Below are positions 5,222 to 32,164 of a DNA stretch of 32,164 nucleotides, one piece after another (positions within the stretch are counted from its first letter, which is position 1; every line of letters starts with the position of its first letter). A model generated the notes under the pieces. That model searched no databases. It was not told where the DNA came from and saw nothing but the letters and a program-made list of their open reading frames with translations. This DNA comes from Nonomuraea lactucae (GTDB taxonomy: Bacteria > Actinomycetota > Actinomycetes > Streptosporangiales > Streptosporangiaceae): the NCBI RefSeq assembly GCF_003313395.1, contig NZ_QNFZ01001060.1, positions 1 to 32,164 of the forward strand, read 5' to 3'. Made by a program: the position numbers and the translations under genes.

Positions 5222-5295
5222 GGGGCGGTAGCTCAGCCGGTCAGAGCATCGGACTCATAATCCGTGGGTCGTGGGTTCAAGTCCCACCCGCCCTA
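5222..5295 (+). tRNA. tRNA-Met (CAT anticodon)
   Basis: A complete cloverleaf of 74 nt without encoded CCA. The acceptor stem GGGGCGG pairs with CCGCCCT (a G-U pair at the end). The D-arm is GCTC/GAGC, the anticodon loop is CTCATAA with CAT at 5256-5258, and the T-arm is GTGGG/CCCAC with loop TTCAAGT, discriminator A. The terminal pair of the anticodon stem is T-T. The lack of an initiator-type anticodon stem argues for elongator methionine. The isoleucine isoacceptor with a lysidine-modified CAT anticodon cannot be excluded. Its 3' half is the integration site of the adjacent element. Confidence 0.93.
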
Positions 5296-5298
5296 CTT
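5249..5298. repeat. attL: tRNA-proximal attachment repeat
   Basis: This 50-bp stretch, running from the anticodon stem through the 3' end of the tRNA, is repeated at 24350-24399 with a single mismatch (A5253 versus C24354). Forty-five bases from 5254 are identical. The repeat restores the tRNA 3' end after integration, as for other tRNA-targeting tyrosine integrases. Confidence 0.95.
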
Positions 5299-15443: not shown

Positions 15444-15549
15444 GATGTGAGGCACCTCGCGTGCGTTGTCGGTAAGCGGGGCGGCAGGGCACGGCTTCGG
15501 TTTGGCGACTGAGGGGCCGTGCCCTGCCTGGTGGTGCGGTCTGCCGGGG

Positions 15550-15617: not shown

Positions 15618-15671
15618 ACCGAGGCTCGCCGGGCGGTCGGGGCCGTGGAGGTCCACCGGGCGGCGGTGCGC

Positions 15672-16013: not shown

Positions 16014-16027
16014 GACGAGCGGTCCCT

Positions 16028-17442: not shown

Positions 17443-17975
17443 CACGCCACCTCCGCGAACGTGTACCGGCTGAGCAGGTGCGCGGCGAAGTAGCGAACGA
17501 CATCGGCGAGGATGGGCGCATCGAGTATGGTCAGCCACCAGTCAGGCGCGGTGTCCTCGGCCAGGCCCATCGCCTTCCGGAGGTCGGCGAACGTGCCGAC
17601 GCGGATCCGGGTCGGCATGCCGTAGGCCGCTTCCAGGTCGGCGGTCAAGCCGTCGCGATCGTGACATCCGCGGATGTCGAGGAAACGGCCGGCCGGGGTG
17701 ATGACCCCTACGTGCGTCCACTCCCAGCCGTCCTCACGCCGTCGTTCGACCAGGCCGTATGACCAGCCGGTCACCTCGTGCAGGGCCGCCGCTAAGAGCC
17801 AGCAGTAGCCCCAGGCGAAGAACTCGTCGGCGTCGTCGTCGATCACGCCGGGACGCAGCATCGCGCACGTGAGTCCACGCCGCGTGGTGGGCTTGGACGG
17901 CCAGAACTCCACCGCGATCTGCTCGAACGGCTGGCCGGCGGCGGCCTGCTCCAGATGCGGGTAGGTGGCGGTCAT
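17442..17975 (-). CDS. hypothetical protein with a possible papain-like triad
   Basis: A 177-residue protein, not assigned to a family. GYCWLLAAALHEVTGW, WTHVGVITPAG and RFLDIRGCHD could form a Cys-His-Asp triad in the order and spacing of small papain-fold hydrolases. That is inference from motif spacing only. The rest is rich in aromatic residues near the C-terminus (DWWLTILDAP, VVRYFAAHLL). ATG 17975 has GGAGGTG upstream and overlaps the whiB stop (TGATG). Confidence 0.6.
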   Translation of the reverse strand: MTATYPHLEQAAAGQPFEQIAVEFWPSKPTTRRGLTCAMLRPGVIDDDADEFFAWGYCWLLAAALHEVTGWSYGLVERRREDGWEWTHVGVITPAGRFLDIRGCHDRDGLTADLEAAYGMPTRIRVGTFADLRKAMGLAEDTAPDWWLTILDAPILADVVRYFAAHLLSRYTFAEVA

Positions 17976-18343
17976 CACGCCACCTCCAGACCGGACAGTC
18001 GCTGAGCGGCACGAGAGCGCATCGCCTCGTACAGCTCCGTGATCTCGGCGTGGGTGTCGATCTCGGCGGCGGTGCGGCCGGCCCAGATGCCCGAGGTCGG
18101 GCGGAGTCTCAGGGCGTACTCGTCGCACAGCACGCGCGCCGGGCAGGTGGCGCACACCTCACGCGCCACGGCCTCACGGGCGGCACGCTCAGCAGTCGTC
18201 TCGATCAGCAGGCGCGGGCCGGTGTGCAGCTCCGGGTCGTAGGTGCACTCAGGCAGCAGCGGGTCGACATCCCCGCCCCACAGCGTTTCGATCTCGGCGA
18301 GCGACATGCGAGACGGGTGGATCGGAAGGTCGGAGCGAACCAT
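17975..18343 (-). CDS. WhiB-family iron-sulfur transcription factor
   Basis: A 122-residue WhiB-like protein. Cys33, Cys64, Cys67 and Cys73 form the C-x30-C-x2-C-x5-C cluster site, and GIWAGRTAAE matches the G[I/V]WGG turn. It should bind a [4Fe-4S] cluster and alter transcription with sigma factor. ATG 18343 has GAAGGAG 10 nt upstream. A 40-nt hairpin lies 27 nt before it. It opens a tightly coupled set of five genes. Confidence 0.93.
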   Translation of the reverse strand: MVRSDLPIHPSRMSLAEIETLWGGDVDPLLPECTYDPELHTGPRLLIETTAERAAREAVAREVCATCPARVLCDEYALRLRPTSGIWAGRTAAEIDTHAEITELYEAMRSRAAQRLSGLEVA

Positions 18344-18370
18344 GATGGTGGTACTCCTTCGGGAGTCGAG

Positions 18371-18410
18371 CGGGGGCGGCTCAGGTCTTGGCGGATGAGG
18401 GCCGCCCCCG
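18371..18410 (-). promoter_or_regulatory. leader hairpin upstream of the whiB-like gene
   Basis: CGGGGGCGGC (18371-18380) pairs perfectly with GCCGCCCCCG (18401-18410) around a 20-nt loop. The structure is 27 nt before the whiB-like start codon and 13 nt after the preceding stop. It may end part of the transcripts or control translation. Confidence 0.55.
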
Positions 18411-18423
18411 GCAGATGAAGTGG

Positions 18424-18600
18424 TCACTTGCTGCTGACGGCCTTGATGAACTCGGCGAACTGCTGCGCGCCGGTCACGATCGCCTCAAAGGCCCACTTGC
18501 ACGCCACGGCAGCGCCCTGCGGGTCGGTGAAGAGGTAGATGACAAAGCCGATCAGGACCAGCGACGGCAGGAACCGGCCGACGCTCTTGGCAGGCTGCAT
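18424..18600 (-). CDS. 58-residue single-pass membrane protein
   Basis: A small gene in the whiB operon. It starts MQPAKSVGRF, has one strong hydrophobic segment (about 10-24, FLPSLVLIGFVIYLF) and continues with TDPQGAAVACKWAFEAIV and an amphipathic end (FAEFIKAVSSK). GGGAGC lies 5 nt before the ATG. The codon pattern is good. A tRNA-like leader structure lies 43 nt upstream. It may be a small Spd-like transfer protein or a membrane regulator. No family was recognised. Confidence 0.7.
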   Translation of the reverse strand: MQPAKSVGRFLPSLVLIGFVIYLFTDPQGAAVACKWAFEAIVTGAQQFAEFIKAVSSK

Positions 18601-18643
18601 GGAAAGCTCCCATGGGTAGGTGAACCCGGCAGAGCAGCCGGAG

Positions 18644-18687
18644 CGCCCCGGCAGGGAGTCGAACCCTTGCCTGCGACCATCGGGGCG
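18644..18687 (-). ncRNA. tRNA-like leader structure, copy A
   Basis: Read on the minus strand, a 7-bp acceptor-like stem (CGCCCCG with CGGGGCG, 18644-18650 with 18681-18687) closes on a T-arm mimic with the loop TTCGACT, which fits the tRNA T-loop consensus. The stem GCAGGG pairs with CCCTTGC with one bulge. The D and anticodon arms are replaced by 10 nt (ATGGTCGCAG). It lies 43 nt before the start of the 58-aa gene. Copy B differs by a compensating pair change. Confidence 0.6.
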
Positions 18688-18714
18688 AAAGCGGAAAGGC
18701 CAGACCGGTCGTGG

Positions 18715-18870
18715 TCAGCCGGGGGCCACCTCGACATAGACCCGGACACTGGGTTGGGCAGGAGCCGAAGGGCACAGCCCTTTGATCGCGGTGATGGAGA
18801 ACGTCTCGCGCAGGGTCAGCACGGCGTCGGCTACCTCGGCAGGCGTTCCGGTCAGTCGGATGGACAGCAT
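18715..18870 (-). CDS. 51-residue conserved-type small protein
   Basis: The product contains MLSIRLTGTPAEVADAVLTL, then RETFSITAI and ends RVYVEVAPG, forming a beta-alpha-beta-beta pattern. Similar proteins of about 50-60 residues are, from memory, frequent in actinomycete AICEs and have no known role. AAAGGAG lies 5 nt before the ATG. It is the first gene of the minus-strand operon, and a tRNA-like structure lies 45 nt before its start codon. Confidence 0.75.
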   Translation of the reverse strand: MLSIRLTGTPAEVADAVLTLRETFSITAIKGLCPSAPAQPSVRVYVEVAPG

Positions 18871-18915
18871 CAGCACTCCTTTGGGTGGGCTGTGACAGAG
18901 GCGAGAGGCGTGGGT

Positions 18916-18956
18916 GCCCTGGCAGGGAGTCGAACCCTGCCTGCGACCATCAGGGC
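18916..18956 (-). ncRNA. tRNA-like leader structure, copy B
   Basis: On the minus strand GCCCTG/CAGGGC closes on a perfect GCAGGG/CCCTGC stem with a TTCGACT loop. The 10-nt joining strand ATGGTCGCAG is identical to copy A. Against copy A the outer stem has a C-G to T-A exchange on both sides, which keeps pairing. It lies 45 nt before the 51-aa gene start. Confidence 0.6.
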
Positions 18957-18967
18957 GAATCGAAGGG

Positions 18968-19000
18968 GCGTGGCCCGAGGCAACCAACCCCAGGCCACGC
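18968..19000. promoter_or_regulatory. inverted repeat in the leader of the minus-strand operon
   Basis: GCGTGGCC (18968-18975) and GGCCACGC (18993-19000) can form an 8-bp stem with a 17-nt loop. It lies directly upstream of tRNA-like copy B in the transcript. It could be a terminator-like or regulatory hairpin. Confidence 0.4.
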
Positions 19001-19082
19001 GGTGTATGGAAGATCAAAAAGTGCAGGGGTCGATGCCCCATGCGGGCCGCCTTTTCAATGGGAGGCGGTGGCCCTTGTCGTC

Positions 19083-19101
19083 GCTATTGAGTTCTCAAAA
19101 G
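19083..19101 (-). promoter_or_regulatory. rrn-leader-like motif at the start of the minus-strand operon
   Basis: On the minus strand the sequence reads TTTTGAGAACTCAATAGCG, in which TTGAGAACTCAA forms a small palindrome. This closely resembles the antitermination (boxA) region of actinobacterial rRNA leaders. It lies about 210 nt before the first small gene, where the operon leader should be. The resemblance is from memory. Confidence 0.45.
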
Positions 19102-19166
19102 ATCAGGTGCGACAGCCCGTCGGCGCGCGGCTTGCGCCGCCTTCCCAAGTCTTCCGGCTGTGCTTG

Positions 19167-19291
19167 AACTGGCTTGAGCCAGTTCGTCTATGGCCTGATT
19201 GAAACTGGCTCAAGCCAGTTGGTCAAGGGCTTAGACCAAGAAGTTCGGCATCAGTGGCCTGAGCCAGTAGGCTAAGTGGCGTAAGCCAGGG
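19167..19291. promoter_or_regulatory. four operator copies upstream of the GntR gene
   Basis: AACTGGCTTGAGCCAGTT (19167-19184) and AACTGGCTCAAGCCAGTT (19203-19220) have perfect 8-bp arms around a 2-nt centre. Degenerate copies with AGCCAG half-sites follow at 19252-19269 and 19274-19291. The array covers the region between the minus-strand operon and the GntR gene, so the repressor can probably silence both itself and the divergent operon. No gene was seen in 18871-19325 apart from these signals. Confidence 0.75.
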
Positions 19292-19325
19292 CAAATAGCT
19301 CTGCGTGACCGCGAGGGAACCTTTG

Positions 19326-20108
19326 ATGAACGATCACGAGGAACGCGAAAGCGTGCGCCGCCCGCCGAGCAAGCGCATCGCCGATGAGCTTCGCCAGGCA
19401 ATCGAGTCGGGAGAGCTGACGCCAGGCGCGAAGCTGCCGTCCGAACGTGACCTAGCCGCCCACTACGGCACCGCGCGCAACACGGCACGAGAGGCGGTCA
19501 GGATCCTGACCGACGCAGGTCTTGTGATCGCGGAACATGGTCGGGGGGCCTACGTGCGCAAGCCTCAAGCCCTCATCCGGCTGGGCAACGATCGTTACTC
19601 GCCGAAGTATCGCGACGCTGGACTGTCGCCCTTCCTGCTGGAATGCGCCAAGCAGGGCAAGACGGGCCGGTTCGAGGTCTTGAGCATCGAACGCGCCACA
19701 CCGCCGACTGAGGTAGCGGGCCGGCTCGATGTCTCCGAGAAGACCAAGTCTGTTCTGCGACGTGAGAACGTCTTCTGGGCGGACGATGACCCGGTCCAGC
19801 GAGTGACCACCTACATCCCGTGGGCGATCGCTACGGGCACGGGTCTCCTACAAGAAGAGGTCCCCCATCAGTACGGCATCCACGGAGTGCTGGAAGATCG
19901 GGGCCACGTGATGGCCCGCATCCGCGAAGAGATAAATGCGCGCATGCCACGGGCTGACGAGGCGCGACATCTGCGACTGCCCCCGGGCGTGCCGGTTATC
20001 GATGTGCTCCACACCAGCGTTGACCAGAAGGGGAAGGCTTACGAGGTGACCCGGTTCGTCATGCGGGCGGACATGTCTGGCCTGCTCTACGACGTGCCTG
20101 TCGAATGA
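19326..20108 (+). CDS. GntR/UTRA-family transcriptional repressor (KorSA-like)
   Basis: A 260-residue protein. The winged helix-turn-helix (about 14-78: SKRIADELRQAIESGELTPG, KLPSERDLAAHYGTARNTAR, GRGAYV) is followed by a UTRA effector domain to the end (for example EVTRFVMRADMSGLLYD). GntR/UTRA proteins repress transfer and excision in AICEs such as pSAM2 (KorSA). ATG 19326 was chosen over the GTG at 19305 because GAGGGA lies 7 nt upstream. Four operator copies lie before it. Its stop overlaps the transporter gene (ATGA), so both are made together. Confidence 0.92.
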   Translation: MNDHEERESVRRPPSKRIADELRQAIESGELTPGAKLPSERDLAAHYGTARNTAREAVRILTDAGLVIAEHGRGAYVRKPQALIRLGNDRYSPKYRDAGLSPFLLECAKQGKTGRFEVLSIERATPPTEVAGRLDVSEKTKSVLRRENVFWADDDPVQRVTTYIPWAIATGTGLLQEEVPHQYGIHGVLEDRGHVMARIREEINARMPRADEARHLRLPPGVPVIDVLHTSVDQKGKAYEVTRFVMRADMSGLLYDVPVE

Positions 20109-20980
20109 CTCGTGTCGGCATTGGGGGCGCCGCACGGGTGCTGGCGTTGGCCCTGCTGTGGGGATCAGGGTTCCTATGGATCAAGATCGCTCTGTGGGGC
20201 CTCTCCCCCACGCAGGTCACGCTGACCAGACTGCTCTTGGGGGCGATTGTGCTGGTGGCGATCGTCTATAGCCAGCGACTAAGACTCGCATCTGGGCGAT
20301 ACCTTTGGGCACACCTCGCCGTGGCTGCCCTATTCGCCAATGCGGCTCCCTACCTGCTATTCGCCGTAGGCGAGCAGACAGTCTCATCCTCGGTGGCGGG
20401 CATCATTAACTGCACCACCCCCTTGTGGACCATGCTTCTTGCATATGCCTCAGGTCATGACCGAAAGCTCGGTACAGCTCGGCTTCTCGGCCTGCTCATG
20501 GGCTTTGTAGGCACGCTCCTGATCTTTGCCCCCTGGTCCTCGGGCAACCAGGTTGTCTCCTGGGGGGGACTAGCCTGTCTCGGCGCCTCTCTGTGCTATG
20601 CGATCAGCTACCTCTACATGGACCGTTTCCTCGTTAACCGAGGGTTGCCCCCGTTGGTGCTTTCAGCCAGCCAACTGATCGCAGCATCAGGTCTCATGGT
20701 CCTGGCACTGCCGTTCGAGGGTCTGCAGGCGATCAAGCCTCGTCTGGATGTGTTGGTTGCCATCGTCGTTCTCGGCTTCCTAGGCACTGGAATGGCGTAC
20801 GTGCTCAACTACAGGATCATCCAAGATGACGGCCCCGTGCTCGCATCGACCGTGACCTACCTCCTCCCGATTGTGGCCGTGATCCTTGGCTGGTTGGTGC
20901 TCGCTGAAGTGCCTACCCTCCTTTCGCTAGGTGGCATGGCCGTGGTCCTGGCCGGCGTCGCCATGACACGGGTCCCGTAG
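20105..20980 (+). CDS. EamA-type (DMT superfamily) membrane transporter
   Basis: A 291-residue protein with ten predicted transmembrane helices in two EamA repeats (ALALLWGSGFLWIKIALWGL; ANAAPYLLFAVGEQTVSSSV; later LGFLGTGMAYVLNYRI and VTYLLPIVAVILGWLVL). Such carriers export small metabolites or amino acids. Its start overlaps the repressor stop, so it is controlled with it. Its role in the element is unknown and it is probably cargo. GC is lower than in the backbone. Confidence 0.9.
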   Translation: MTRVGIGGAARVLALALLWGSGFLWIKIALWGLSPTQVTLTRLLLGAIVLVAIVYSQRLRLASGRYLWAHLAVAALFANAAPYLLFAVGEQTVSSSVAGIINCTTPLWTMLLAYASGHDRKLGTARLLGLLMGFVGTLLIFAPWSSGNQVVSWGGLACLGASLCYAISYLYMDRFLVNRGLPPLVLSASQLIAASGLMVLALPFEGLQAIKPRLDVLVAIVVLGFLGTGMAYVLNYRIIQDDGPVLASTVTYLLPIVAVILGWLVLAEVPTLLSLGGMAVVLAGVAMTRVP

Positions 20981-21066
20981 CCGGAACCACCAAGACTTCG
21001 GGTAAGTTAACCGGCCTTCGGGAGGCGACAGACAGAGTTACGTCCGTTCGGTTACTGTCCGAGGTT

Positions 21067-21213
21067 ATGGCTAAGGGCGACGACGACGAAGCCCCTCCCG
21101 TTTGCGGGACCTGCCTCGGGGCGGGTGGCGAGTGGATCGAGCTCAACGGCAAGAAGGGCCAGGAACGAAAATGGGTTCAATGCACAGCATGCAACGGAAC
21201 CGGGCGTAGGTGA
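21067..21213 (+). CDS. 48-residue zinc-ribbon protein
   Basis: A small gene beginning MAKGDDDEAPPV and containing CGTCLGAGG and CTACNGTGR, two C-x2-C-x-G-x-G motifs like one half of a DnaJ zinc domain. The GTGA overlap with the next gene and the shared motif type show that the two belong together. The ATG follows a weak AGG. The 86 nt upstream show no clear promoter. Confidence 0.7.
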   Translation: MAKGDDDEAPPVCGTCLGAGGEWIELNGKKGQERKWVQCTACNGTGRR

Positions 21214-21521
21214 CTGATCCAATCGCCTGCCCAGAGTGCGAAGGGCGCAAGGGTCAGCGGCTTGGCGAACTTTTCCTAGCCTGTCGATTCTGCGGCGGTT
21301 GCGGCTGGGTCGGCGGCAGCAATGAGCCGGCCGAACGAAGCGACCAACCGCCGCCCGCACCGCCACCAGCCTGGGCGCACAAGGTTTGGCGGGATCCATG
21401 GATCGCCTCCGCCATCTCCTGTCGCCTATGCCTCGGATCCAAGAAGGTCTCTCATGTGGACGAGGAAGCAGGCACCCTGGTGACCGTTCCTTGTAAATGT
21501 GTTGACGGCCAAGGCCGCTAG
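21210..21521 (+). CDS. 103-residue double zinc-ribbon protein
   Basis: The product has CPECEGRKG and CRFCGGCGW near the start and CRLCLGSKKV with CKCVDGQG near the end, each a C-x2-C or similar pair. A proline-rich stretch (QPPPAPPPAW) separates the two halves. The GTG start overlaps the preceding stop. Such proteins are common in actinomycete elements and might bind nucleic acid or partner proteins. The role is unknown. Confidence 0.75.
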   Translation: MTDPIACPECEGRKGQRLGELFLACRFCGGCGWVGGSNEPAERSDQPPPAPPPAWAHKVWRDPWIASAISCRLCLGSKKVSHVDEEAGTLVTVPCKCVDGQGR

Positions 21522-21624
21522 TGGGCGGCTATCCGACAGCATCACGGCGTACAACTCATCAGTTCTGGTGCCCGAGCATGCACTTAGTCCAAGAAATCGA
21601 ACTAATCAATCAAAGAGGGTCACA

Positions 21625-22473
21625 GTGCTCGCCGTTGAGGATACCGCGTCAGGCTTAGACATTGCGGCATTCATAGTTTCTGCTATTGCCATATTTGTGG
21701 CCATCGCTGTAGGAAGATACGCTCGCCAACAGGCAAATGCTGCGATTGATCAGGCCGTCGAGGCCGGTAAGCAAGCCGATTCAGCCAATGACCAAGCGCT
21801 TTCTGCTAGAGAGCAGGCAGACATAGCCAATCGACAGCTAGCCCTGTCAGAGCAAATCCGTCGAGAGCAATCAGAGCCCTACATCACTGTTGATATTGTG
21901 CCGTCACCAATTGTGAGCTGGGTATTTCTCTTGGTGATCGAAAACATCGGTCCAACCATGGCCCGGAATGTCCGCATTACCTTCAACCCGCCGATCCAAA
22001 GGGTCAGAGATAGCGATGGCCGTGGTGCACTCCCGATGGCCGAAGCCTCAATGTTCCGCGAAGGGATTGCACTCATGCCCCCAAGAAGGAGGATAGAACT
22101 CTTCTTCGATCGCACATTCGACCTCGTTCCCTCCGACTTGCCAAAGACCTATACGGTAACCGTGGAAGCCGATGGGCCATTTGGCGCCGTAGAGCCCCTG
22201 ACTTATAAAATTGATCTCAACATGTACGACGAGGGATATGATCGAATCAGCCCCAAAAATCTCCACGATGGCGTACAGACGCTCGACAAGATTCTCACTG
22301 AGATCAAAAAAATTCGGACAGAGATCACTAATCAGAGAGCTAACGAAGTGGCCGGATTGAGCAGCCTCGGCGATACCCAGCCGGAGGAGGTAGGAACTCG
22401 CACGCTACGTGCAACGTTAGCGGCCGTTCTGCGGAGGGTTCTAGCACGCACCCATACCCCGCACGAGAGGTAG
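21625..22473 (+). CDS. membrane-anchored coiled-coil hypothetical protein, low GC
   Basis: A 282-residue protein. One transmembrane segment (about 13-31, IAAFIVSAIAIFVAIAVG) is followed by an alanine/glutamine-rich coiled coil (32-85) and a beta-rich domain (YITVDIVPSP; VIENIGPTMARNVRITFNPP). GTG 21625 has AGAGGG 5 nt upstream. The GC content is clearly lower than the backbone, so it is foreign cargo. A 13-bp palindrome (22478-22490) follows its stop. No family was recognised. Confidence 0.7.
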   Translation: MLAVEDTASGLDIAAFIVSAIAIFVAIAVGRYARQQANAAIDQAVEAGKQADSANDQALSAREQADIANRQLALSEQIRREQSEPYITVDIVPSPIVSWVFLLVIENIGPTMARNVRITFNPPIQRVRDSDGRGALPMAEASMFREGIALMPPRRRIELFFDRTFDLVPSDLPKTYTVTVEADGPFGAVEPLTYKIDLNMYDEGYDRISPKNLHDGVQTLDKILTEIKKIRTEITNQRANEVAGLSSLGDTQPEEVGTRTLRATLAAVLRRVLARTHTPHER

Positions 22474-22477
22474 GCCC

Positions 22478-22490
22478 GGCATGTCATGCC
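22478..22490. promoter_or_regulatory. 13-bp palindrome after the cargo gene
   Basis: GGCATG-T-CATGCC lies 5 nt after the stop of the coiled-coil protein in the convergent gap. The loop is too short for an RNA hairpin without opening a base pair, so its use as a terminator is uncertain. Confidence 0.3.
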
Positions 22491-22610
22491 TGACTCCGAG
22501 CGGTGGCGCTGACCACATCGTGACCAGCATGACGGAATTGGTCGCAACCGACTCCAGGGAGAGGCACTGAGAGCATTATAGGACGACGAAATAGACATTT
22601 CTCAAAGCCA

Positions 22611-23303
22611 CTAATTGCTTGCCATCAATATTCTTTGAAGAACGGCGAGCATTATTAGCCATATGCATACCGACAGGGTAACTCGATGATACCCAAGGCG
22701 AATCGCCAGCGGAGATATCTTGCGTCGATGCGTGAAGGCGCAGCATCCCAGTCGCCGTACTTTTCTCTGAAAAGAGAAGAGCGCTACCAGCATGGATATA
22801 CCCACGACGGGCGTTATGCCAACAATGAGGATTAGCAGCGGCTTGAGCTGAATAAAGATCGCTTGGGCTGCAATTGGTAGGATCGTAAGTACTGGCCACA
22901 GGGCGGCCAGCCATAGAATCGGTCGCAGTATGGCGAAAGAAATGGCCGGATATCCGTAGGGAGCTAGCGTGCGATGGATTTTGGCAGTTACAGCATCCGA
23001 TCGTTTAGTTCTTTTTAATGCAAGCGTGTAGGCACCTCTATATCCTAGGTTTATCGACATTTTGGGATTCGAGCAAAGGATTTTTAGATCTTGAAGCTCC
23101 CCGTAAGATGCGTCATCGAGATCCTCTACACCTTTAGGTGCACGAGAGCCCTTCGCATATAGCTGTGGACCTGCCTTCATTTCCTTAAGTACTACAAGAA
23201 GGTCACGGACTGCCTGCGTATCAATTTTATAAGTTCCGAGCCGAACAAGATGGCTCCGATCCTCTATTGGCGTATTGTCGACATGTCTCCTGAGAGGACT
23301 CAT
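22611..23303 (-). CDS. multi-pass membrane protein, paralogue 1 of a cargo pair
   Basis: A 230-residue protein. The N-terminal soluble part (about 1-115: VRLGTYKIDTQAVRDLLVVL; GVEDLDDASYGELQDLKIL) precedes three hydrophobic segments (AISFAILRPILWLAALWPVL, then ILIVGITPVVGISMLVALF and VTLSVCIWLIMLAVL). The soluble part aligns by eye with the next gene. GGAGG lies 4 nt before the ATG. GC is low and the host-like codon bias is absent. It may belong to an unknown defence or exclusion function, but that is inference. Confidence 0.65.
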   Translation of the reverse strand: MSPLRRHVDNTPIEDRSHLVRLGTYKIDTQAVRDLLVVLKEMKAGPQLYAKGSRAPKGVEDLDDASYGELQDLKILCSNPKMSINLGYRGAYTLALKRTKRSDAVTAKIHRTLAPYGYPAISFAILRPILWLAALWPVLTILPIAAQAIFIQLKPLLILIVGITPVVGISMLVALFSFQRKVRRLGCCAFTHRRKISPLAIRLGYHRVTLSVCIWLIMLAVLQRILMASN

Positions 23304-23337
23304 TGGGCCTCCGCGAGGCAGTTGGCAACCTGAGCGT

Positions 23338-24024
23338 TTATTTGGGCAAATTCAGTATCACTACAAGCGCTGAGATCGCGGCCGTGATTGTGCCACCTAC
23401 TATCCCGGACGCCGCCACCATTGCGACATCTTTTCTAATCCCCCTCCATTGAGTCATCTTATCCTTGCGCCACCTTCGTATAACATATGCAGATCCATGC
23501 GTGTACTGTCTGACGATGAGCATTATATTCACTATTGCAATCATGGTGAAATAGAGGATCAATCGAGCAGCTTGGAAGTCGTCGGGATACCGGATGATAT
23601 ACCAGCCATATAGGGCATAGAAAAGTATGGATGTAGTTACTATGGCTACAAAGAGAGGGTGAACGACCAAGGGGACTTTAAATGCTCTGGTGAATAACCA
23701 GACATTGTCTACTAGTTTTTTCGCGGCCACCTTCTTGTCTCGGGTGGAAACTTGTGCCCCACCTAGATATAGCTCTACAACAATCATTGGTTCTGCAGTT
23801 TTTATCGTGACGTAATATTTCTCCTTTTTTCGCGCTTCCAGTAGGTCCTCAACACCAGTCTCAGCCACGCAGTCACCTGCCCACAACTCAACCGCTCTGC
23901 ATTCAGCGCGAAGATACATGAGAAGATCATCTAGATCCTCAAAATGAAGGCGCAGGCGCCCTAAGTTGCGAACATAGCCGCGTTCCGGACTTGAGTTACG
24001 ATCAAGAGGCGACACAAACTCCAT
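23338..24024 (-). CDS. multi-pass membrane protein, paralogue 2 of a cargo pair
   Basis: A 228-residue protein of the same architecture as its neighbour: a soluble N-terminus (about 1-115: NLGRLRLHFEDLDDLLMYL; TGVEDLLEARKK) and hydrophobic segments (HPLFVAIVTTSILFYALYGW; LILYFTMIAIVNIMLIV; GIVGGTITAAISALVVIL). Shared features are the LG-x-DDLL start, the G-VED block and the length. The two genes are 34 nt apart in tandem. No strong ribosome binding site was found before ATG 24024. The function is unknown. Confidence 0.65.
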   Translation of the reverse strand: MEFVSPLDRNSSPERGYVRNLGRLRLHFEDLDDLLMYLRAECRAVELWAGDCVAETGVEDLLEARKKEKYYVTIKTAEPMIVVELYLGGAQVSTRDKKVAAKKLVDNVWLFTRAFKVPLVVHPLFVAIVTTSILFYALYGWYIIRYPDDFQAARLILYFTMIAIVNIMLIVRQYTHGSAYVIRRWRKDKMTQWRGIRKDVAMVAASGIVGGTITAAISALVVILNLPK

Positions 24025-24349
24025 GGTAGGCGTAAGGACACAGTTTGGGGAGTTCTACCTCCTGGAGCACTGCGATCGAGGACAGGGCATGTATGCATGG
24101 GGGGTAACCTAGCTGCTCATACTCTGAACTTTGTTTTCTAGCAAGGCCCACCGTTCCGAAGGGCGGCCCTGTGTGGCACGCTGACGGCCGTTCTGCAATG
24201 GCTCCAAGCCTTACCCTCGGACGGTAGCGACAGCCGACACAGAGCCATTCAATCTTGATCGTTACCCAATGCTCACCCAATGGGGTCAGCATGGCGACGT
24301 GCAAACCATGTTGTCGCTGGTCAAAGACATGACATAGCTACAACGGAAG
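24025..24349. other. non-coding end region with candidate arm-type site (24263-24279)
   Basis: No convincing gene was found in these 325 nt. TACCCAATGCTCACCCA at 24263-24279 matches the attL-side site at 5404-5420 with two changes. It is followed by another ACCCAATGG, so it may be a double arm site. A minus-strand frame here (24002-24304) has no recognisable features. Confidence 0.45.
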
Positions 24350-24399
24350 TCGGCCTCATAATCCGTGGGTCGTGGGTTCAAGTCCCACCCGCCCTACTT
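24350..24399. repeat. attR: distal attachment repeat
   Basis: A copy of the tRNA 3' half with one mismatch to 5249-5298. The tRNA cannot be rebuilt here because the acceptor 5' part and D-arm are missing. The sequence diverges after 24399. The defence operon follows from 24744. Confidence 0.95.
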
Positions 24400-24743
24400 T
24401 CCAGTTCCGCATTCGACCTGGGGTTTCACGGTTCTCGTCGGCCTCGGATCGCGTTGTTGATCATGGTTAGTTGCTCGGTGGTTGCTCTTGTGTAGGGACC
24501 GTGTATCCCGGTAGATCATTTAGACGATCACCGTCAGCTCAGACCCCAGAGATGACCATCCGAAGATCAAGCCGGAAAGCCTGCTCGCGTCGCACTTCAG
24601 GCCGGCAAATAGCCCTCAACTAGGGACCTCAGCCCCTCGCCATCATATTCGTTGACTCAGTTAACACTCACCCCATACCAAACCCACGCCAATGCGTGTA
24701 CGGTAGCGCTAGTGATCATCGTGCGCAGGGCGAGGAGCTTACG
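24400..24743. promoter_or_regulatory. promoter and leader region of the kinase-helicase operon
   Basis: The 344 nt between attR and the fusion gene hold no clear gene. TTGACT at 24652-24657 could be a -35 box with a weak -10 (CATACC or TACCAA) at about 24674-24681, giving a leader of about 60 nt. The segment is less GC-rich than the flanks. Confidence 0.4.
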
Positions 24744-27700
24744 GTGAACGTAGACGTGGTGGCGGGCCGGTTCCGACTGCTGACTCCCCTCGGCAAGGGG
24801 AACATGGGAGAGGTCCACCGGGCGCAGGATCTCCATGATGACAACGCCGCCGTCGCCGTCAAGCTGATCCTCCGCAGCAGGTCTGGAACGGTCCTGGACT
24901 CACGGTCCGATGCCAAGGCCGTGCAGCGGTTCGACCGCGAGGTGCGCATCATGCGCAGGCTCGAGCATCGCAATCTGCCCCGCACGATCGCCGGCGGCGT
25001 CGACTCCTCTGGCCTGCCGTACCTGGCGATGGAGCTCTTGGACGGCGAGTCCCTCACCGACCTCGTCACCGAGCACCCACAGCTCCCCGTCTCCTGGGCC
25101 GCCGCCCTGGGAACGCAGATGGCCGATGCGCTGTCCGCCGCTCACGGCGTCGAAGTCGTCCACCGCGATCTCAAGCCGAGCAACGTGATGCTGCTGCGCG
25201 GCGGCCTGGTCAAGGTCCTCGACTTCGGCGCGGGCCGGATCATCGGGGACGTCGAGCACAGCAAGATCACCAGCACGGGGGTCACGGTCGGCAGTGCCCG
25301 CTACATGGCCCCTGAGCAGTTCCGCGCTTCGACCGTCACCCCGGCGGCCGACCTGTACGCCCTGGGCTGCTTGCTGTACGAAATGCTCACCGGTGTCCCG
25401 CCGTTCCACAGTGAGTCCGCCTACGACCTCGCCGAGAAGCACCAGAAGGAGCAGCCGCCGCCCATCAGCCTGCTCCGCTCCGACGTCCCGCAGGACCTCA
25501 CACGCCTGGTGGAGCGGTTACTCGCCAAGGACCCGGCCGACCGCCCCGCCGACGCGGTCACCGTCCGGGAGGCGCTGCTGCCACTCGTAGTAGGGACGGC
25601 GAACGTCCCCGGCTGGTCCGAGTTCGACCCGGTGGCCTGCCTCAAGGCCAGGCCGGCCGATCAGGTGCAGGCTCCCGCCCCGGCACCGGAGTCGCGCCAC
25701 ACGGGAGCCGGCATGGACGTCTTCGGCGTCCACCAGCAACTGCTCAAGGACTACAGGGCGTTCACCGAAAGTGGCACGACCATCCGCGACGGCCGGATCG
25801 CGGCCTTCGTCGAGGACAACCTGGACGCCAAGTCCCAGTGGCCCGATCCGTGGGTGTCGCTGAACCCGTTCTTCAAGTCGGGCGGCACAGTACTGGAGGC
25901 GTCCCAGAACGGCACCCTGCACCCGGAGTGTGCCCGCATCTTCCAGGTCGGCAAGACCGAGGACGGCACGGAGTGCGACGGCCGGCCGCTGACGCTCCAC
26001 CAGCACCAGCTCGAAGCCATCAGGACCGCACAATCCGGCAGTTCGTACGTGCTCACGACCGGCACGGGCTCGGGCAAGTCCCTGGCCTACATCGTGCCGA
26101 TCGTCGACAGAGTGCTCAGGCAGCGTGACCAGGAGGGCCCGAAGGCGCGTAAGCGCGTGCGCGCGATCATCGTCTATCCGATGAACGCCCTGGCCAACAG
26201 CCAGCTCAAGGAGCTGGAGAAGTATCTGCGGGACGGTTACGGCGCCGGCCGGGAGAAGGTGCGCTTCGCCCGCTACACCGGCCAGGAGGACGAGGCCGCC
26301 CGCAAGAAGATCCGCGACGATCCCCCGGACATCCTGCTCACCAACTACGTGATGCTGGAGCTGATGCTCACCCGGCCTGAGGACCGCAGGTCGCTGATCA
26401 GAATGGCCGAGGGGCTGGAGTTCCTGGTCTTCGACGAGCTGCACACCTACCGCGGCCGGCAGGGCGCCGACGTCGCCCTGCTCATTCGCCGGGTGCGTGA
26501 CGCCTGCCGCGCCACGAGCCTGCAGTGCATCGGCACCTCCGCCACCATGGCCACCGAGGGCACGGCCCAGGACCGCCGCGACGAGGTGGCCCGCATCGCG
26601 ACGACGCTCTTCGGCACGCCGGTCGACGCCGCGAACATCATCGGTGAGACGCTGGTCCGCGCTACCGGGGAGCCCCCGCAGACGGTGCCGGTCGAGCGGC
26701 TGACCGCGTCGGGGGCGCCACGCGCGTACGAGGGCCTCGTCAGGGATCCCCTGGCACGCTGGATCGAGACCCGCTTCGGGCTCGCCCTCGACGAGGAGGG
26801 CCGGCTGGTCCGCCAGCAGCCCGCCAAGATCGAGGATGCCGCGGCCGAACTGGCCGAGGCGAGCGGTCTGGACGCGGACACGTGCGCGGAGGCGATCCGG
26901 GCCACGCTGAAGGCCGGATCGGAGGCATGCCACCCGCTGACCGGCCGCCCGCTCTTCGCCTTCCGGCTGCACCAGTTCCTGTCCAAGGGCGACACAGTGC
27001 ACGTCACGCTCGAGGACGAGTCGAGCCGTCATCTGACCCGCGACTACCAGCTCTACCAGCCGGGCACCGACGGCAAGATCCTGCTGCCGCTGGCCTTCTG
27101 CCGCGAGTGCGGCCAGGAGTACCTGACCGTGTGGCGCTCGGAGAAGAACGGCAAGACCGTGTACGAGAACCGCCGCGAGACGGCCGCCACTGGCGGCAGC
27201 GGCGAAGACGGCTACCTCTACGTCGACTCCACCCATCCGTGGCCGTCCACCGTCGAGCAGGCGATGAAGGACCGCCGGCTACCCGAGTCCTGGCTGGAGT
27301 TCGACGCGCACGGCGGGGAAATGGTGCGGGACTCGTACCGGCCGAGGATTCCCCGCCTCGTCACCGTTGACCCGTACGGCGTGGAGGGGCAGGGCGAGCT
27401 GAAGGCCGCGTTCATCCCGGCGCCGTTCCTGTTCTGCCTGCACTGTGGGGTGAGCTACGAGCAGGTACGTGGCAAGGACTTCGCCAAGCTGGCCCGCCTC
27501 GACCAGGAAGGGCGTTCCTCGGCGACGTCGCTCATCTCCGCCTCGATCGTCCGCTCGCTCAAGGAGGTGCCGGCCGAGACGTTGAAGAAGGAAGCCCGCA
27601 AGCTGCTGACGTTCGTCGACAACCGGCAGGACGCCTCCCTGCAGGCGGGGCACTTCAATGACTTCGTCCAGATCACCCAGCTTCGCAGCGCGCTTTACCA

Positions 27701-30700
27701 CGCGGCGACGGCCGCGGGCGAGGAGGGCATCCGGCACGAGGACCTGGCTGCCCGTGTCTCCGGGGCGCTGGGGGTGAGCCCTGGAGACTACACCGCAGGC
27801 GATGATCCGCCGCCGATGATGGCCGCGAGCGCGGCGAAGACGCTACGGGACGTCATCGCCTTCCGTCTCTACCTGGATCTGCAGCGGGGCTGGCGCGTCA
27901 CCATGCCCAACCTGGAGCAGACGGGCCTGCTGGTCATCGACTACGCGGACCTCGACTGGCTGGCCGGCAGGGACGAACGGTGGAGCGATGTCCGTCCCGA
28001 ACTGCGCCAGGCCGAGCCGGGGCAGCGCGCCGAGATCATGCGTGCGTTGCTGGACGAGATGCGCCGGTCGCTGGCCATCGACGTCGAGTACTTCCGGGAG
28101 GACTTCGACAGCCTGCAGCGCGCGAGCGAGGAGCGGCTGAAGGATCCGTGGCGGCTGGCCGGCGGCGACCGGCCGAAGGTGAGTACCGCCTACCCGCAGG
28201 GCTCCCGCCCCGGCATCGACCGTTCCGGGCTGTTCCTGTCAGGGAGGGGCAAGTTCGGCAAGTACCTGCGGCGGATCCACTTCCCCAAGGTGTCGGCCGA
28301 CGACGCCCAACGGATCATCGCGGACCTGATGAAAGTGCTGGCCAAGGCGTACCTCCTGACGACGGTCGAGGTCGCACCGCAGCGGGCCGGCCGGTACCGC
28401 CGCCCTTCCGGCCCGCCCGTCACCGGTTACCGCATCGCCGCCGCCTGCCTCATCTGGCGGGCAGGCACCGGCGAGAGCGGCACACACGACCCGCTGACCC
28501 GCACCTACGCCAGCGGCGACGGCCCGCGCGTCAACGTCTTCTTCCGCGACCTCTACCGCGACACGGCCGCCGCCCTCGTCGGCCTGTCGGCCCGCGAGCA
28601 CACCGCGCAAGTGTCCCCGCAGGACCGGGAGCAGCGCGAGGAGGACTTCCGCAAGGCGGAGCTCAAACTGCTCTACTGCTCCCCCACCATGGAGCTGGGC
28701 GTGGACATCTCCGAACTCAACGCGGTCATGATGCGCAACGTGCCGCCCACGCCCGCCAACTACGCCCAGCGCAGTGGCCGGGCGGGCCGGCAGGGGCAGC
28801 CGGCGCTGGTCACCACCTACTGCGCCACCGGCAACAGCCACGACCAGTACTACTTCCGCCGCTCCGACCGCATGGTGGCCGGGGCGGTCCGCCCGCCACG
28901 GCTGGACCTCGCCAACGAGGACCTGGTCCGCTCACACGTCCAGGCCATCTGGCTGGCCGAAACGGGGCTCAGGCTGGGCAACAACATCCCGACGCTCATC
29001 GACCTGAGCTACGACGAGGGCGCCCGCCGCCCGAACCCCGATCTGCTCCTGCACGCCTACGTCGAAGCCGACGTCCGTGATCAGGAAGCTCGCCGGCGCG
29101 CGGTGGCGGCGGCCCACAATGTGCTCGACGGGGTGCTGCCCGGTCCCGGTGAACCGCCCACCTGGTGGCACGACGAGTGGATCGAGGAGCAGGTGCGCCG
29201 CGCTCCCGAGGGGTTCGACCGATCCTTCGACCGCTGGCGCGACCTGTTCAGGGCGGCCTTGGCCGACCAGGCCGAGCAGAACCGGCGGCGCCTGGACCAC
29301 ACGCTCACCGACCGCGACCGCAAGATTGCCGAGCTGCAGCGCAAGCAGGCCGAGACCCAACTCGACCTGCTGAAGAACGAGAGCGTGGACAGCCGGTCGC
29401 TGCTGTCGGACTTCAACCCGTACCGCTACCTGGCCAGCGAGGGCTTTCTGCCCGGCTACTCCTTCCCGCGTCTCCCACTGGCGGCGTACATCCCGACGAC
29501 GGGGCGGCGCTACGGCGACGGCGACTACCTGCAGCGTCCCCGTTTCCTGGCGATCAGGGAGTTCGGGCCCGGTGCGCTGATCTACCACGAGGGCAACCGC
29601 TACCAGGTGGAGCGCATCCAGCTGCGTCCCGACGCCTCGGGCGAGGTGGTGACCACCGAGGCGCAGCGCTGCGCCGGTTGCGGCTACCACTATGACTCGG
29701 GCGACCGCGCCGACAAGTGCGACGTGTGCGACGCGGCACTGCCCACGCCGACGCGCGGCCTGCTCCAGTTGCACACCGTCTACACCCGGCGGCGGGAGCG
29801 GATCTCCTCCGACGAGGAGGAGCGGCGCCGCGCGGGCTTCCGGCTGGTGACCTCCTACCGCTTCAACGATCACGGGCGGCGGACGGGCCGCCGTGACGCG
29901 CTCCTGGCCGACGCCGCCGGGAAGCTCGCGACGCTCTCGTTCGGCGACTCCGCCACCGTACGCATCTCCAACATGGGACGCCTGCGCGCCAAGAAGGACG
30001 AGCCTGACGGTTTCTGGCTCGACCCGGCCGACGGCCGCTGGCTGAACGAGCAGGCGGCGGCCGACGCCTCCGGCGACTCCAGCGAGATGCCGGTGGTCGA
30101 CGCCGACGGCAACGAGAAGCGTCAGCGCAAGCGGGTCATCCCGTACGTGCAGGACACCCGTAACATCCTGGTGCTCAAGCTCGATGAACCTCTACCCGTG
30201 CCGGTCGCGCTCTCATTGATGTACGCGCTGGAACGCGGTATCGAAGCCGCCTTCGAGCTGGAGGACTCGGAGTTGACCAGCGAGCTGCTGCCGCCCAACG
30301 AGGGGCCGCGGGATCGCATGCTCTTCACCGAGGCCGCAGAGGGCGGCGCCGGCGTGCTCCGGCTGATGCAGTCGGAGCCGGGTGCGCTGGCCCGCGCCGC
30401 CACCGAAGCGCTGGAGATCTGTCACTTCGCCCCTGACGGCACCGACCGCGGCGGCCCCCGCCCCGACCGGAAGTGCGCCCACGGTTGCTACGACTGCCTG
30501 CTCACCTACGGCAACCAGCTCAACCACACCGACATAAACCGGCACTCGGTCCGGGACCTGCTGCTGCGCCTGGCCGCCGCCGAGGCCAGGCCGACCGGGC
30601 GCGGCGAGAGCCGTACCGAGCAGCTGAACCGGCTGGCGGACCAGTCGGAGAGCGGGCTGGAGCGCGACTTCCTCGCCTGGCTGAAGCAGCAGGGTCTGCG

Positions 30701-30968
30701 CCTGCCCGACGAAGCGCAGACGTTCATCACCGAGGCGCTGGCCAGGCCCGACTACGTCTACCGGCTGCCCGGTGTCAAGCTGGCGGTCTTCGTCGACGGC
30801 CCGGTCCACCAGGACGCGGTGGTCGCCGAGCGGGACGCCGAGGCCGAGGAGCGCCTGTTCGACCAGGGCTGGGACGTCATCCGCTTCTCGCACGACGCCG
30901 ACTGGGCGGCGGTCGCGTCCCAGAACGAGCGCTACTTCGGAACCATGACGACACGAGGAAACAGTTGA
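24744..30968 (+). CDS. Ser/Thr kinase-DEAD helicase-DUF1998-nuclease fusion (defence protein)
   Basis: A 2,074-residue multidomain protein. Kinase about 8-285: GKGNMGEV (17-24), HRDLKPSN (140-147), DFG (160-162), APEQ. Helicase lobe 1 about 425-610: HQHQLEAI, TGTGSGKS (K445), YPMNALANSQ, DELH (564-567), GTSAT (597-601). A long insertion has two C-x2-C zinc pairs (Cys786/789 and Cys898/901). Lobe 2 carries YCSPTMELGVDIS and QRSGRAGR (1342-1349). DUF1998-like zinc sites follow at Cys1643/1646/1659/1662 and Cys1911/1915/1918. The C-terminus has VFVDGPVH (D2018), like Vsr/DUF559 nucleases. GTG 24744 has GAGGAG 6 nt upstream, and 24696 is less likely. Domain calls are seen; a defence role is inferred from DISARM/Druantia-type helicases. 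Confidence 0.88.
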   Translation: MNVDVVAGRFRLLTPLGKGNMGEVHRAQDLHDDNAAVAVKLILRSRSGTVLDSRSDAKAVQRFDREVRIMRRLEHRNLPRTIAGGVDSSGLPYLAMELLDGESLTDLVTEHPQLPVSWAAALGTQMADALSAAHGVEVVHRDLKPSNVMLLRGGLVKVLDFGAGRIIGDVEHSKITSTGVTVGSARYMAPEQFRASTVTPAADLYALGCLLYEMLTGVPPFHSESAYDLAEKHQKEQPPPISLLRSDVPQDLTRLVERLLAKDPADRPADAVTVREALLPLVVGTANVPGWSEFDPVACLKARPADQVQAPAPAPESRHTGAGMDVFGVHQQLLKDYRAFTESGTTIRDGRIAAFVEDNLDAKSQWPDPWVSLNPFFKSGGTVLEASQNGTLHPECARIFQVGKTEDGTECDGRPLTLHQHQLEAIRTAQSGSSYVLTTGTGSGKSLAYIVPIVDRVLRQRDQEGPKARKRVRAIIVYPMNALANSQLKELEKYLRDGYGAGREKVRFARYTGQEDEAARKKIRDDPPDILLTNYVMLELMLTRPEDRRSLIRMAEGLEFLVFDELHTYRGRQGADVALLIRRVRDACRATSLQCIGTSATMATEGTAQDRRDEVARIATTLFGTPVDAANIIGETLVRATGEPPQTVPVERLTASGAPRAYEGLVRDPLARWIETRFGLALDEEGRLVRQQPAKIEDAAAELAEASGLDADTCAEAIRATLKAGSEACHPLTGRPLFAFRLHQFLSKGDTVHVTLEDESSRHLTRDYQLYQPGTDGKILLPLAFCRECGQEYLTVWRSEKNGKTVYENRRETAATGGSGEDGYLYVDSTHPWPSTVEQAMKDRRLPESWLEFDAHGGEMVRDSYRPRIPRLVTVDPYGVEGQGELKAAFIPAPFLFCLHCGVSYEQVRGKDFAKLARLDQEGRSSATSLISASIVRSLKEVPAETLKKEARKLLTFVDNRQDASLQAGHFNDFVQITQLRSALYHAATAAGEEGIRHEDLAARVSGALGVSPGDYTAGDDPPPMMAASAAKTLRDVIAFRLYLDLQRGWRVTMPNLEQTGLLVIDYADLDWLAGRDERWSDVRPELRQAEPGQRAEIMRALLDEMRRSLAIDVEYFREDFDSLQRASEERLKDPWRLAGGDRPKVSTAYPQGSRPGIDRSGLFLSGRGKFGKYLRRIHFPKVSADDAQRIIADLMKVLAKAYLLTTVEVAPQRAGRYRRPSGPPVTGYRIAAACLIWRAGTGESGTHDPLTRTYASGDGPRVNVFFRDLYRDTAAALVGLSAREHTAQVSPQDREQREEDFRKAELKLLYCSPTMELGVDISELNAVMMRNVPPTPANYAQRSGRAGRQGQPALVTTYCATGNSHDQYYFRRSDRMVAGAVRPPRLDLANEDLVRSHVQAIWLAETGLRLGNNIPTLIDLSYDEGARRPNPDLLLHAYVEADVRDQEARRRAVAAAHNVLDGVLPGPGEPPTWWHDEWIEEQVRRAPEGFDRSFDRWRDLFRAALADQAEQNRRRLDHTLTDRDRKIAELQRKQAETQLDLLKNESVDSRSLLSDFNPYRYLASEGFLPGYSFPRLPLAAYIPTTGRRYGDGDYLQRPRFLAIREFGPGALIYHEGNRYQVERIQLRPDASGEVVTTEAQRCAGCGYHYDSGDRADKCDVCDAALPTPTRGLLQLHTVYTRRRERISSDEEERRRAGFRLVTSYRFNDHGRRTGRRDALLADAAGKLATLSFGDSATVRISNMGRLRAKKDEPDGFWLDPADGRWLNEQAAADASGDSSEMPVVDADGNEKRQRKRVIPYVQDTRNILVLKLDEPLPVPVALSLMYALERGIEAAFELEDSELTSELLPPNEGPRDRMLFTEAAEGGAGVLRLMQSEPGALARAATEALEICHFAPDGTDRGGPRPDRKCAHGCYDCLLTYGNQLNHTDINRHSVRDLLLRLAAAEARPTGRGESRTEQLNRLADQSESGLERDFLAWLKQQGLRLPDEAQTFITEALARPDYVYRLPGVKLAVFVDGPVHQDAVVAERDAEAEERLFDQGWDVIRFSHDADWAAVASQNERYFGTMTTRGNS

Positions 30969-32107
30969 TGCCCGCCTACTCCGCCGGCTCCCTGGTCTCG
31001 GCCAGGGGCCGCGACTGGGTGGTGCTCCCCGAGAGCGCCCCCGACATGCTGGTGCTGCGCCCGCTGGGCGGCTCCGACGACGACGTCGCCGCCGTCTTCC
31101 CGGCGTTCGAGGACGTGGTCAGCGCCAGCTTCGCACCGCCCTCGCCGAAGGATCTGGGCGACCAGCACGCCGCCGGGCTGCTGCGCTCGGCGCTGCGCAT
31201 CGGCTTCCGCTCGGGCGCGGGGCCGTTCCGGTCGCTGGCGGGGATCGCAGTGGAGCCGCGGGCGTACCAGTTGGTGCCGCTGATGATGGCGCTGCGGCAG
31301 AAGACCGTCCGCATGCTGATCTCCGACGACGTGGGCATTGGCAAGACCGTCGAGGCCGGGCTGATCGCCGCCGAGATGCTCGCCCAGGGCAGCGCGGAGC
31401 GGCTGGCCGTGCTCTGCTCACCGGCGCTGGCCGAGCAGTGGCAGGAGGAGCTGCGGACGAAGTTCGGCATCGACGCCGAACTCGTCTTAGCCAGCACGGT
31501 CTCCAAGCTGGAGCGGGGCCTGGACCTGGGGCAGTCGCTCTTCGACCGGCACCGCCGGGTGATCGTCTCCACGGACTTCATCAAGTCCACCCGGCACCGC
31601 GACGACTTCGTCCGGCACTGCCCCGACCTGGTGATCGTGGACGAGGCGCACACCTGCGTGGCGGCCGACGACGGCACCTCCGCCCAGAACCAGCTCCGCT
31701 TCGAGCTGCTGCAGCGGATCGCCAAGAAGCCAGAGCGGCACCTGCTCCTGGTGACCGCGACCCCGCACAGCGGTAAAGAGAGCGCCTTCCGCAACCTGCT
31801 GGGCCTGCTCAGCCCCGAGTTGGCCTCGGTCAAGCTCGACTCGGACGCCGGGCGGCGACTGCTTGCCCAGCACTTCGTGCAGCGCAAGCGGGCCGACGTA
31901 CGCCAATTCCTCACCGTGAACGACGGCCTGGCCGACGACAGCCAGCGCGAGGACACATCCTTCCCCTCCGACCGCTACTTCAAGGACGAGACCTACCGCC
32001 TCTCCCCCGCCTACCGGGCGTTACTCGAAGACGCCATCGCCTACGCCAGCGAACGAGTGTCGGCGGCGGGCGAGCAGGGCAAGCGGGGTATCCATTCAGG
32101 CCTGTGA
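30968..32107 (+). CDS. DrmD-like SNF2 helicase, truncated
   Basis: The 379-residue product contains only the first helicase lobe. Walker A is SDDVGIGKTVEAGLIA, the DEAH box is DLVIVDEAHTC and motif III is LLVTATPHSG, followed by RRLLAQHFVQRKRADVRQFL and LSPAYRALLEDAIAYASE. The sequence closely resembles DrmD of class 1 DISARM, normally about 1,000 residues. The frame then reads GEQGKRG-IHSGL and stops, losing the second lobe and motifs V and VI. TGATG overlap with the kinase-helicase gene shows one operon. The truncation coincides with foreign sequence that begins about 32085-32095. The intact gene probably continues beyond the window on the other side of an insertion. Confidence 0.8.
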   Translation: MPAYSAGSLVSARGRDWVVLPESAPDMLVLRPLGGSDDDVAAVFPAFEDVVSASFAPPSPKDLGDQHAAGLLRSALRIGFRSGAGPFRSLAGIAVEPRAYQLVPLMMALRQKTVRMLISDDVGIGKTVEAGLIAAEMLAQGSAERLAVLCSPALAEQWQEELRTKFGIDAELVLASTVSKLERGLDLGQSLFDRHRRVIVSTDFIKSTRHRDDFVRHCPDLVIVDEAHTCVAADDGTSAQNQLRFELLQRIAKKPERHLLLVTATPHSGKESAFRNLLGLLSPELASVKLDSDAGRRLLAQHFVQRKRADVRQFLTVNDGLADDSQREDTSFPSDRYFKDETYRLSPAYRALLEDAIAYASERVSAAGEQGKRGIHSGL

Positions 32108-32111
32108 TTGA

Positions 32112-32164
32112 TCAGGCGTTTTGTGGTGGCATCCAGGGGGTTCCGGCCAGGGCCTCGCGGAGGG
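32112..32164 (-). CDS. C-terminus of an unidentified gene, probably a transposase (partial)
   Basis: On the minus strand an open frame enters from the window edge and ends ...LREALAGTPWMPPQNA with TGA at 32112-32114. Its direction, its start just where the SNF2 gene is broken, and its short 3' tail fit an insertion sequence whose right or left end lies near 32088. The family cannot be named from 17 residues. The terminal inverted repeat may include TATCCATTCAGGCC. Confidence 0.4.
   Translation of the reverse strand, partial: LREALAGTPWMPPQNA

Follow-up and report, generated by a model that had tools for sequence, protein, structure and literature searches.

A serine/threonine kinase fused to the YprA-family helicase of an ARMADA type I-like operon in Nonomuraea lactucae and other actinomycetes

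Among described antiphage systems, the one that most resembles the operon considered here is ARMADA type I, for which a YprA homologue, a BrxHII/RapA-like SNF2 helicase and a PglX-like methylase, encoded in that order, have been reported (Bell et al., 2025 preprint, PMC12458937). In the phage assays that the main text of the preprint describes, type II was tested and type I was not; for type II in Escherichia coli, defence was reported to be non-abortive and to depend on helicase motors as well as on the methylase motif (PMC12458937). Our operon lies at the end of a stretch of 32,164 nucleotides from Nonomuraea lactucae (NCBI RefSeq assembly GCF_003313395.1), referred to below as the window, which is the whole of contig NZ_QNFZ01001060.1 (C766), so that the end of the window is also the contig end. 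Its first gene encodes a serine/threonine (Ser/Thr) kinase and a YprA-family helicase in one polypeptide, and on balance we favour the view that the locus is a kinase-regulated variant of the ARMADA type I antiphage operon. An earlier note on this DNA had proposed a system not yet described, but the operon minus its kinase has been published as ARMADA type I, so this is not an unknown system, and it is the kinase that is the newly added part. The word 'kinase' is absent from the main text of Bell et al. (PMC12458937), and among the listed matches of the literature searched, supplements being outside its scope, none was found to describe an ARMADA kinase.

The first gene is a single open frame (24696–30968, 2090 amino acids (aa)), which encodes 2074 aa when counted from the GTG at 24744; the latter, situated behind GGAG and matching relatives of about 2074 aa, is the likelier start. 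Residue numbers given here are for the 24696 start, and 16 must be subtracted from them for the 24744 start that the earlier note used. Pfam matches above cut-off were to Pkinase (3e-42, residues 28–285), DEAD (6.1e-27), Helicase_C (1.6e-13) and MZB (2e-8), in agreement with the earlier view of a Ser/Thr kinase, with HRDLKPSN and DFG motifs (both found), fused to a DEAD helicase with DUF1998-like zinc sites (Table 1). The Vsr/DUF559-like C-terminus that had also been proposed gave a DUF559 match, but below the Pfam cut-off (0.0073), and a nuclease there is probable. By sequence, the nearest solved kinases are PknB entries, and the nearest solved helicases are 9tu7 (2108 aa) and 9wae (1970 aa), both labelled merely as helicases, and YprA/MrfA (6znp); in fold comparisons the closest solved match was MrfA, with DrmAB chain B second. 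ARMADA type I is further marked by a BrxA-like domain behind RecA1, by a zinc-binding beta-barrel and MarR-like inserts within RecA2, and by a helical finger ahead of OB. The predicted models contain a helical block behind RecA1 and a long helical hairpin; no match to BrxA or MarR was among those listed in the fold and structure comparisons, which does not imply absence. Two CxxC pairs (802/805 and 914/917) are conserved in relatives of the fusion.

In the window's strain the operon comprises kinase-YprA, SNF2 and methylase genes, with the SNF2 gene split by an insertion sequence. The fusion gene overlaps the next gene at TGATG (30966–30970), as the earlier note had recognized in suggesting translational coupling, and the same overlap is found in relatives G045 and G011. 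The frame that follows (30968–32107) had been taken for a DrmD-type protein, but is a truncated piece of an SNF2 gene of about 956 codons: a 379-aa stub whose final codons are supplied by the end of the insertion sequence. The intact orthologue (956 aa) comes from G045, a relative that shares 97% identity with the window in the fusion protein and that also provides the uninterrupted form of the insertion site. On a second contig of the assembly, C572, a reverse copy of the inverted repeat (61–76) is followed by CAAGCGGG (77–84), after which come the remainder of SNF2 (residues 370, approximately, to 956) and a PglX-like methylase gene (1835–5941). The assembly contains seven exact copies of the inverted repeat, none of them more than about 76 bases from the end of a contig. 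A methylase and a PLD nuclease had both been anticipated beyond the window; the methylase is there, but none of the three operon proteins has a Pfam PLD domain. Against defence-system models, the SNF2 protein scored 1.4e-81 with DrmD and 2.4e-49 with BrxHII, and the methylase 2.6e-62 with DrmMI and 1.7e-14 with PglX. Because the insertion splits the SNF2 gene, the operon is probably inactive in this strain.

The gene order is maintained in most of the loci examined. In a first set of 37 loci (17 fused, 20 unfused), the SNF2 gene was next in 36 and the methylase present in 34, the three without it (the window, L101 and L105) all being at contig ends, the last two on short contigs. Among 80 named loci, which were the best 80 of 587 confirmed matches and so are biased to fused ones, 75 had SNF2 and 69 the methylase; the misses were mostly at contig ends, yet L148 has neither gene although there was room for both. 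In these 80, the kinase was in the YprA frame in 44, encoded separately and divergently upstream in five, and lacking in 31. In genes of expected length from 116 loci searched, methylase motifs NPP[WFY] and G.G.F were present in 86/86 and 85/86, respectively, and SNF2 motifs Walker A and DE[AS]H in 91/91 and 86/91. In Glycomyces arizonensis (L140, 4258–8289) the methylase gene is upstream of the kinase-YprA gene, not downstream of SNF2.

Within the genus, 8/55 genomes gave matches to the fusion protein or to the helicase portion of it (three fused, five unfused). In samples that overlap with this one and with each other, and in which fusion was called from frame length and identity, they occurred in 10/197 genomes for the class (five fused, three unfused, two partial), 24/100 for the family (27 matches: 13, 12 and two) and 38/200 for the order (41 matches: 21, 17 and three). 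When 29 of the class and family places (14 fused, 15 unfused) were verified for the kinase by tblastn, there was no disagreement. A protein search with the helicase stretch kept 7,997 of 8,000 scored relatives at E<=1e-50, and all 120 listed from among these had a kinase domain. The layout is thus no isolated oddity, and its occurrence in many actinomycetes suggests control by phosphorylation in a defence system that has been described only recently. Four genomes (G272, G301 and G310 in the family sample, and G368 in the order sample) seemingly have both fused and unfused copies of ARMADA I. One relative labelled Melainabacteria, L110, shares 72% identity with the protein of the window and may be a misbinned contig.

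Conservation of the kinase was assessed in an alignment of 138 rows (the 120 proteins listed by the search, 17 loci and the window's protein entered a second time), all of them close relatives and some near-identical. The earlier note had regarded absence of key kinase residues from most relatives as a refutation of its reading; however, K56, E82, H156, R157, D158, K160, D176, F177, G178 and E207 were invariant in 138/138 rows, N163 was kept in 136/138, and the first glycine of the glycine-rich loop in 122/138. Mean identity to the window was higher in the kinase (0.70) and in the N-terminal part that includes RecA1 (0.78) than in the linker (0.47), which argues that the kinase is under constraint. 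To judge from these residues, the fused kinase looks active.

How did the kinase come to be associated with the operon? In a FastTree phylogeny of YprA proteins (120 of 121 tips, of which 114 were unique, several being one locus fetched through two tools; L144, with a match under 1500 aa, was dropped), rooted by choice on Chroococcidiopsis and built from our own matches, fused status was set by the length and position of the helicase match. There is one fused clade (61/62 tips fused, support 0.976), joined at 0.999 to a sister clade of six tips (support 0.909). Five of these six, all from Streptomyces, carry the kinase as a separate gene (about 321–362 aa as called), transcribed away from YprA; the sixth, L091, has no kinase. 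Beyond the separate kinase genes, the DNA of these five loci is of four unrelated kinds, L158 and L176 alone having the same one, so kinase and ARMADA seem to move as a pair. In a midpoint-rooted kinase tree, from which two of 133 kinases were left out for want of an alignment, all 61 fused kinases group in a single clade (0.933), and the separate ones lie amid other kinases of about 320 aa (1.0), beside some carrying the database label PkaE. The background kinases were picked for closeness to the separate kinase, or came from the window's own genome and from flanks, and with this bias and the midpoint rooting the tree is moderate evidence. A single origin of both ARMADA-linked kinases was considered and set aside, as the separate ones group with the 320-aa and PkaE-like kinases, away from the fused ones. 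Because the kinase of the sister clade is separate, of another lineage and found in four unrelated flanks, the sequences suggest that a kinase was recruited twice: by fusion, and as the divergently encoded partner of another lineage. The sole kinase-less member of the fused clade, L130 (Streptomyces sp. AC1-42W, 9752–15346), has no upstream kinase match, an apparent loss of the kinase.

What might the kinase do? A possible scheme, which we put forward tentatively, is that a helicase-nuclease carrying its own kinase turns its gathering on foreign DNA into phosphorylation, and that control of this kind was recruited twice. It would build on features evident at the sequence level: the architecture, the gene order, the single fused lineage, the kept catalytic residues and the separate kinase of the sister lineage. 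The PglX-like enzyme would mark host DNA, and the SNF2 and YprA motors would load on unmarked phage intermediates or on those bearing single-stranded DNA. DruE, a dimeric relative in the YprA family, is reported to build assemblies on single-stranded DNA (PMC13192584). As helicase protomers gathered on phage DNA, their kinases would meet and trans-phosphorylate each other and the partner proteins, and phosphorylation would license unwinding and cleavage. The kinase would thereby act rather as PglW may in BREX-2, holding off a dangerous helicase-nuclease until infection; PglW kinase activity is reported to be needed for Pgl resistance, which K677A abolishes (PMC4365076).

Several observations weigh against a kinase-regulated ARMADA variant of this kind. 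Each of the two clades has a member that retains the operon but no kinase (L130 in the fused clade, L091 in its sister), so the kinase is not an absolute requirement, and there is no kinase nearby in most of the unfused ARMADA I loci examined. Ser/Thr positions specific to the fused clade are few (two in YprA, one in SNF2, none in the methylase) and, by eye and with no statistical test, not visibly more frequent than other residues, which speaks against fixed phosphosites. The operon of the window is itself broken, and the mechanism suggested for the fusion draws on sequence and analogy. The kinase might instead be a brake, whose constitutive phosphorylation of the helicase or methylase keeps them off until infection relieves it. 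So large a helicase-nuclease would need restraint, the reported toxicity of PglX in Pgl means that such methylases can harm the host (PMC4365076), and none of the three proteins of the operon has a phosphatase domain by Pfam; but ARMADA I without a kinase is common and must be tolerated, it is evident, and L130 persists with its kinase seemingly lost, so we regard a brake as rather unlikely.

A little less probable again is that the kinase is a second effector, phosphorylating host or phage proteins so that growth stops in an abortive branch. The PADLOC models for the kinase PD-T4-6 do score high on the kinase domain (best 5.5e-83), but general kinase similarity would yield equal matches; self proteins have been suggested as the targets of PglW kinases (PMC12839542), whereas the ARMADA II reported as non-abortive in E. 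coli (PMC12458937) is of a different type and is without this kinase. A role in DNA repair or housekeeping, in place of defence, seems very improbable for the operon, even though one main YprA branch is reported to comprise DNA-repair helicases (PMC12458937) and MrfA is the closest solved fold: the distribution is patchy (8/55 in the genus and 10/197 in the class sample), there is a methylase partner, attachment (att)-like sites adjoin the operon in three genomes, and the ARMADA class has shown antiphage activity, for type II (PMC12458937). Returning to the idea of kinase control switched on by foreign DNA, the two apparently independent recruitments argue that phosphorylation matters for the ARMADA class, and a kinase with invariant catalytic residues offers a direct handle on the switching-on of helicases of the ARMADA, DISARM and Druantia-like kinds.

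Table 1. Features of the window (residues numbered from the 24696 start)
Feature	Position	Strand	Details
tRNA-Met (CAT)	5222..5296	+	presumed integration target
50-bp copy (98%) of tRNA-Met 3' end	24350..24399	+	att-like; just upstream of operon
Kinase-YprA helicase-DUF1998/MZB-nuclease fusion protein	24744..30968	+	2074 aa
Hanks-type Ser/Thr kinase domain	24759..25577	+	residues 22-294; Pfam, PDB PknB relatives
Kinase residues			K56, E82, HRDLKPSN 156-163, D176FG, APE 205-207
N-terminal region and RecA1	25713..26645	+	Walker A K461, DELH 580-583, SAT 615-617
RecA2	28566..28955	+	motif VI RSGRAGRQG
MZB / DUF1998-type zinc-binding module	30216..30500	+	Pfam; fold matches MrfA, DrmB
Probable C-terminal PD-(D/E)xK (Vsr/DUF559-like) nuclease domain	30651..30950	+	D2019, D2034
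SNF2/BrxHII-like helicase gene, 5' part, interrupted	30968..32087	+	encodes about the first 373 of about 956 residues
8-bp target-site duplication CAAGCGGG	32080..32087	+	second copy C572:77-84
Insertion sequence end	32088..32164	+	16-bp inverted repeat GTATCCATTCAGGCCT at 32088-32103; contig stops inside

The operon begins just outside an integrative element of about 19 kb (5222–24399), in which genes for an integrase (6508–7932), a DUF3631 protein (8307–9494) and a Prim-Pol (9503–10402) lie between tRNA-Met and the copy of its 3' end, an arrangement that we take to be that of actinomycete integrative elements. In G052 and G039, unfused ARMADA operons adjoin the same att-like sequence, with copies on both sides in G039, so tRNA-Met seems to be a shared island site. 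A repeat finder that compares only within each stretch found nothing in two short stretches, and Rfam matches near the operon were all sub-threshold. No phage record matched the helicase part; 70 plasmid records did, one at 60–80% identity and the others lower.

Some related loci have further genes. In G045 the fusion gene is immediately preceded by a second, DrmD-like SNF2 gene that lies on the other strand (L019:4631–8242; DrmD 4.4e-131), and L077 has a similar match, also upstream. A gene for a UvrD/GajB-like helicase with an extra N-terminal part of about 240 aa is near ARMADA I in 14/117 loci (for example, L020:7459–9612 and L028:1708–3798), some of these loci having been fetched twice and some matches being partial. 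It is found beside all three kinds of ARMADA I (fused, with separate kinase, and with none) and recalls ArmD, the fourth gene of ARMADA type II, although a RelE-like part was not established.

The PADLOC model PDLC02853, labelled DpdE, covers the ARMADA SNF2 protein almost end to end (1655.8 bits), so that ARMADA I may pass for a partial Dpd system. Although this was the best PADLOC label, we do not accept the SNF2 protein as DpdE: the NCBIfam DpdE model gives the stub 118.3 bits (cut-off 500). No 7-deazaguanine genes were noticed in the gene lists, though no search was aimed at them.

The earlier suggestion of a relationship to DISARM or Druantia, with a kinase built into the helicase, is supported. 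The top PADLOC model for the fusion is DruE3 (3.2e-105), and a YprA-family helicase is common to this operon and Druantia III, but the SNF2 and methylase partners differ from that system, and the C-terminal PLD domains of Druantia III-A DruE were not found in the fusion by Pfam (some Druantia III-like proteins are reported to have a Vsr nuclease or no nuclease; PMC12458937). DruH was not seen among the neighbours scanned (a part of them, in the best 25 rows of the tables), and assignment to Druantia III fails on the PLD domains, DruH having been searched for in part. Resemblances to DISARM include those of the SNF2 protein to DrmD and the methylase to DrmMI, and the fold match to DrmAB chain B. 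However, DISARM has separate DrmA helicase and DrmB (DUF1998) proteins and a PLD protein, DrmC, whereas here helicase and MZB are in one protein, a kinase is present and Pfam finds no PLD domain; the single protein and the lack of that domain rule out membership.

BREX-2/Pgl likewise combines a Ser/Thr kinase, a PglX-like methylase and a helicase, and serves as our model for kinase control. PglW, though, has a NERD domain and tandem kinases, whereas here there is one kinase, fused to a YprA helicase, with no NERD domain by Pfam, and the PglW model gave the fusion 57.9 bits against a cut-off of 990; these differences rule out BREX-2 membership. The operon has three genes, without other BREX-2 genes, and by Pfam none of its proteins is PglZ or PglY, for which no dedicated search was made. 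With ARMADA type I, the agreement extends to the order YprA, SNF2, methylase (split between two contigs in the window's own genome, G000, but intact in G011), which is reported to be reversed in many cyanobacteria (PMC12458937); on the Chroococcidiopsis plasmid pCHRO.01, the SNF2 and methylase genes are ahead of the YprA gene. Also shared are a helicase and DUF1998 in a single polypeptide, the OB/CON/DUF1998 feature being found here, and a nuclease-like C-terminus, which in ARMADA type I is an active Vsr-type PD-(D/E)xK nuclease and here is a probable nuclease. What distinguishes the present operon from ARMADA type I is the N-terminal Ser/Thr kinase of the fusion.

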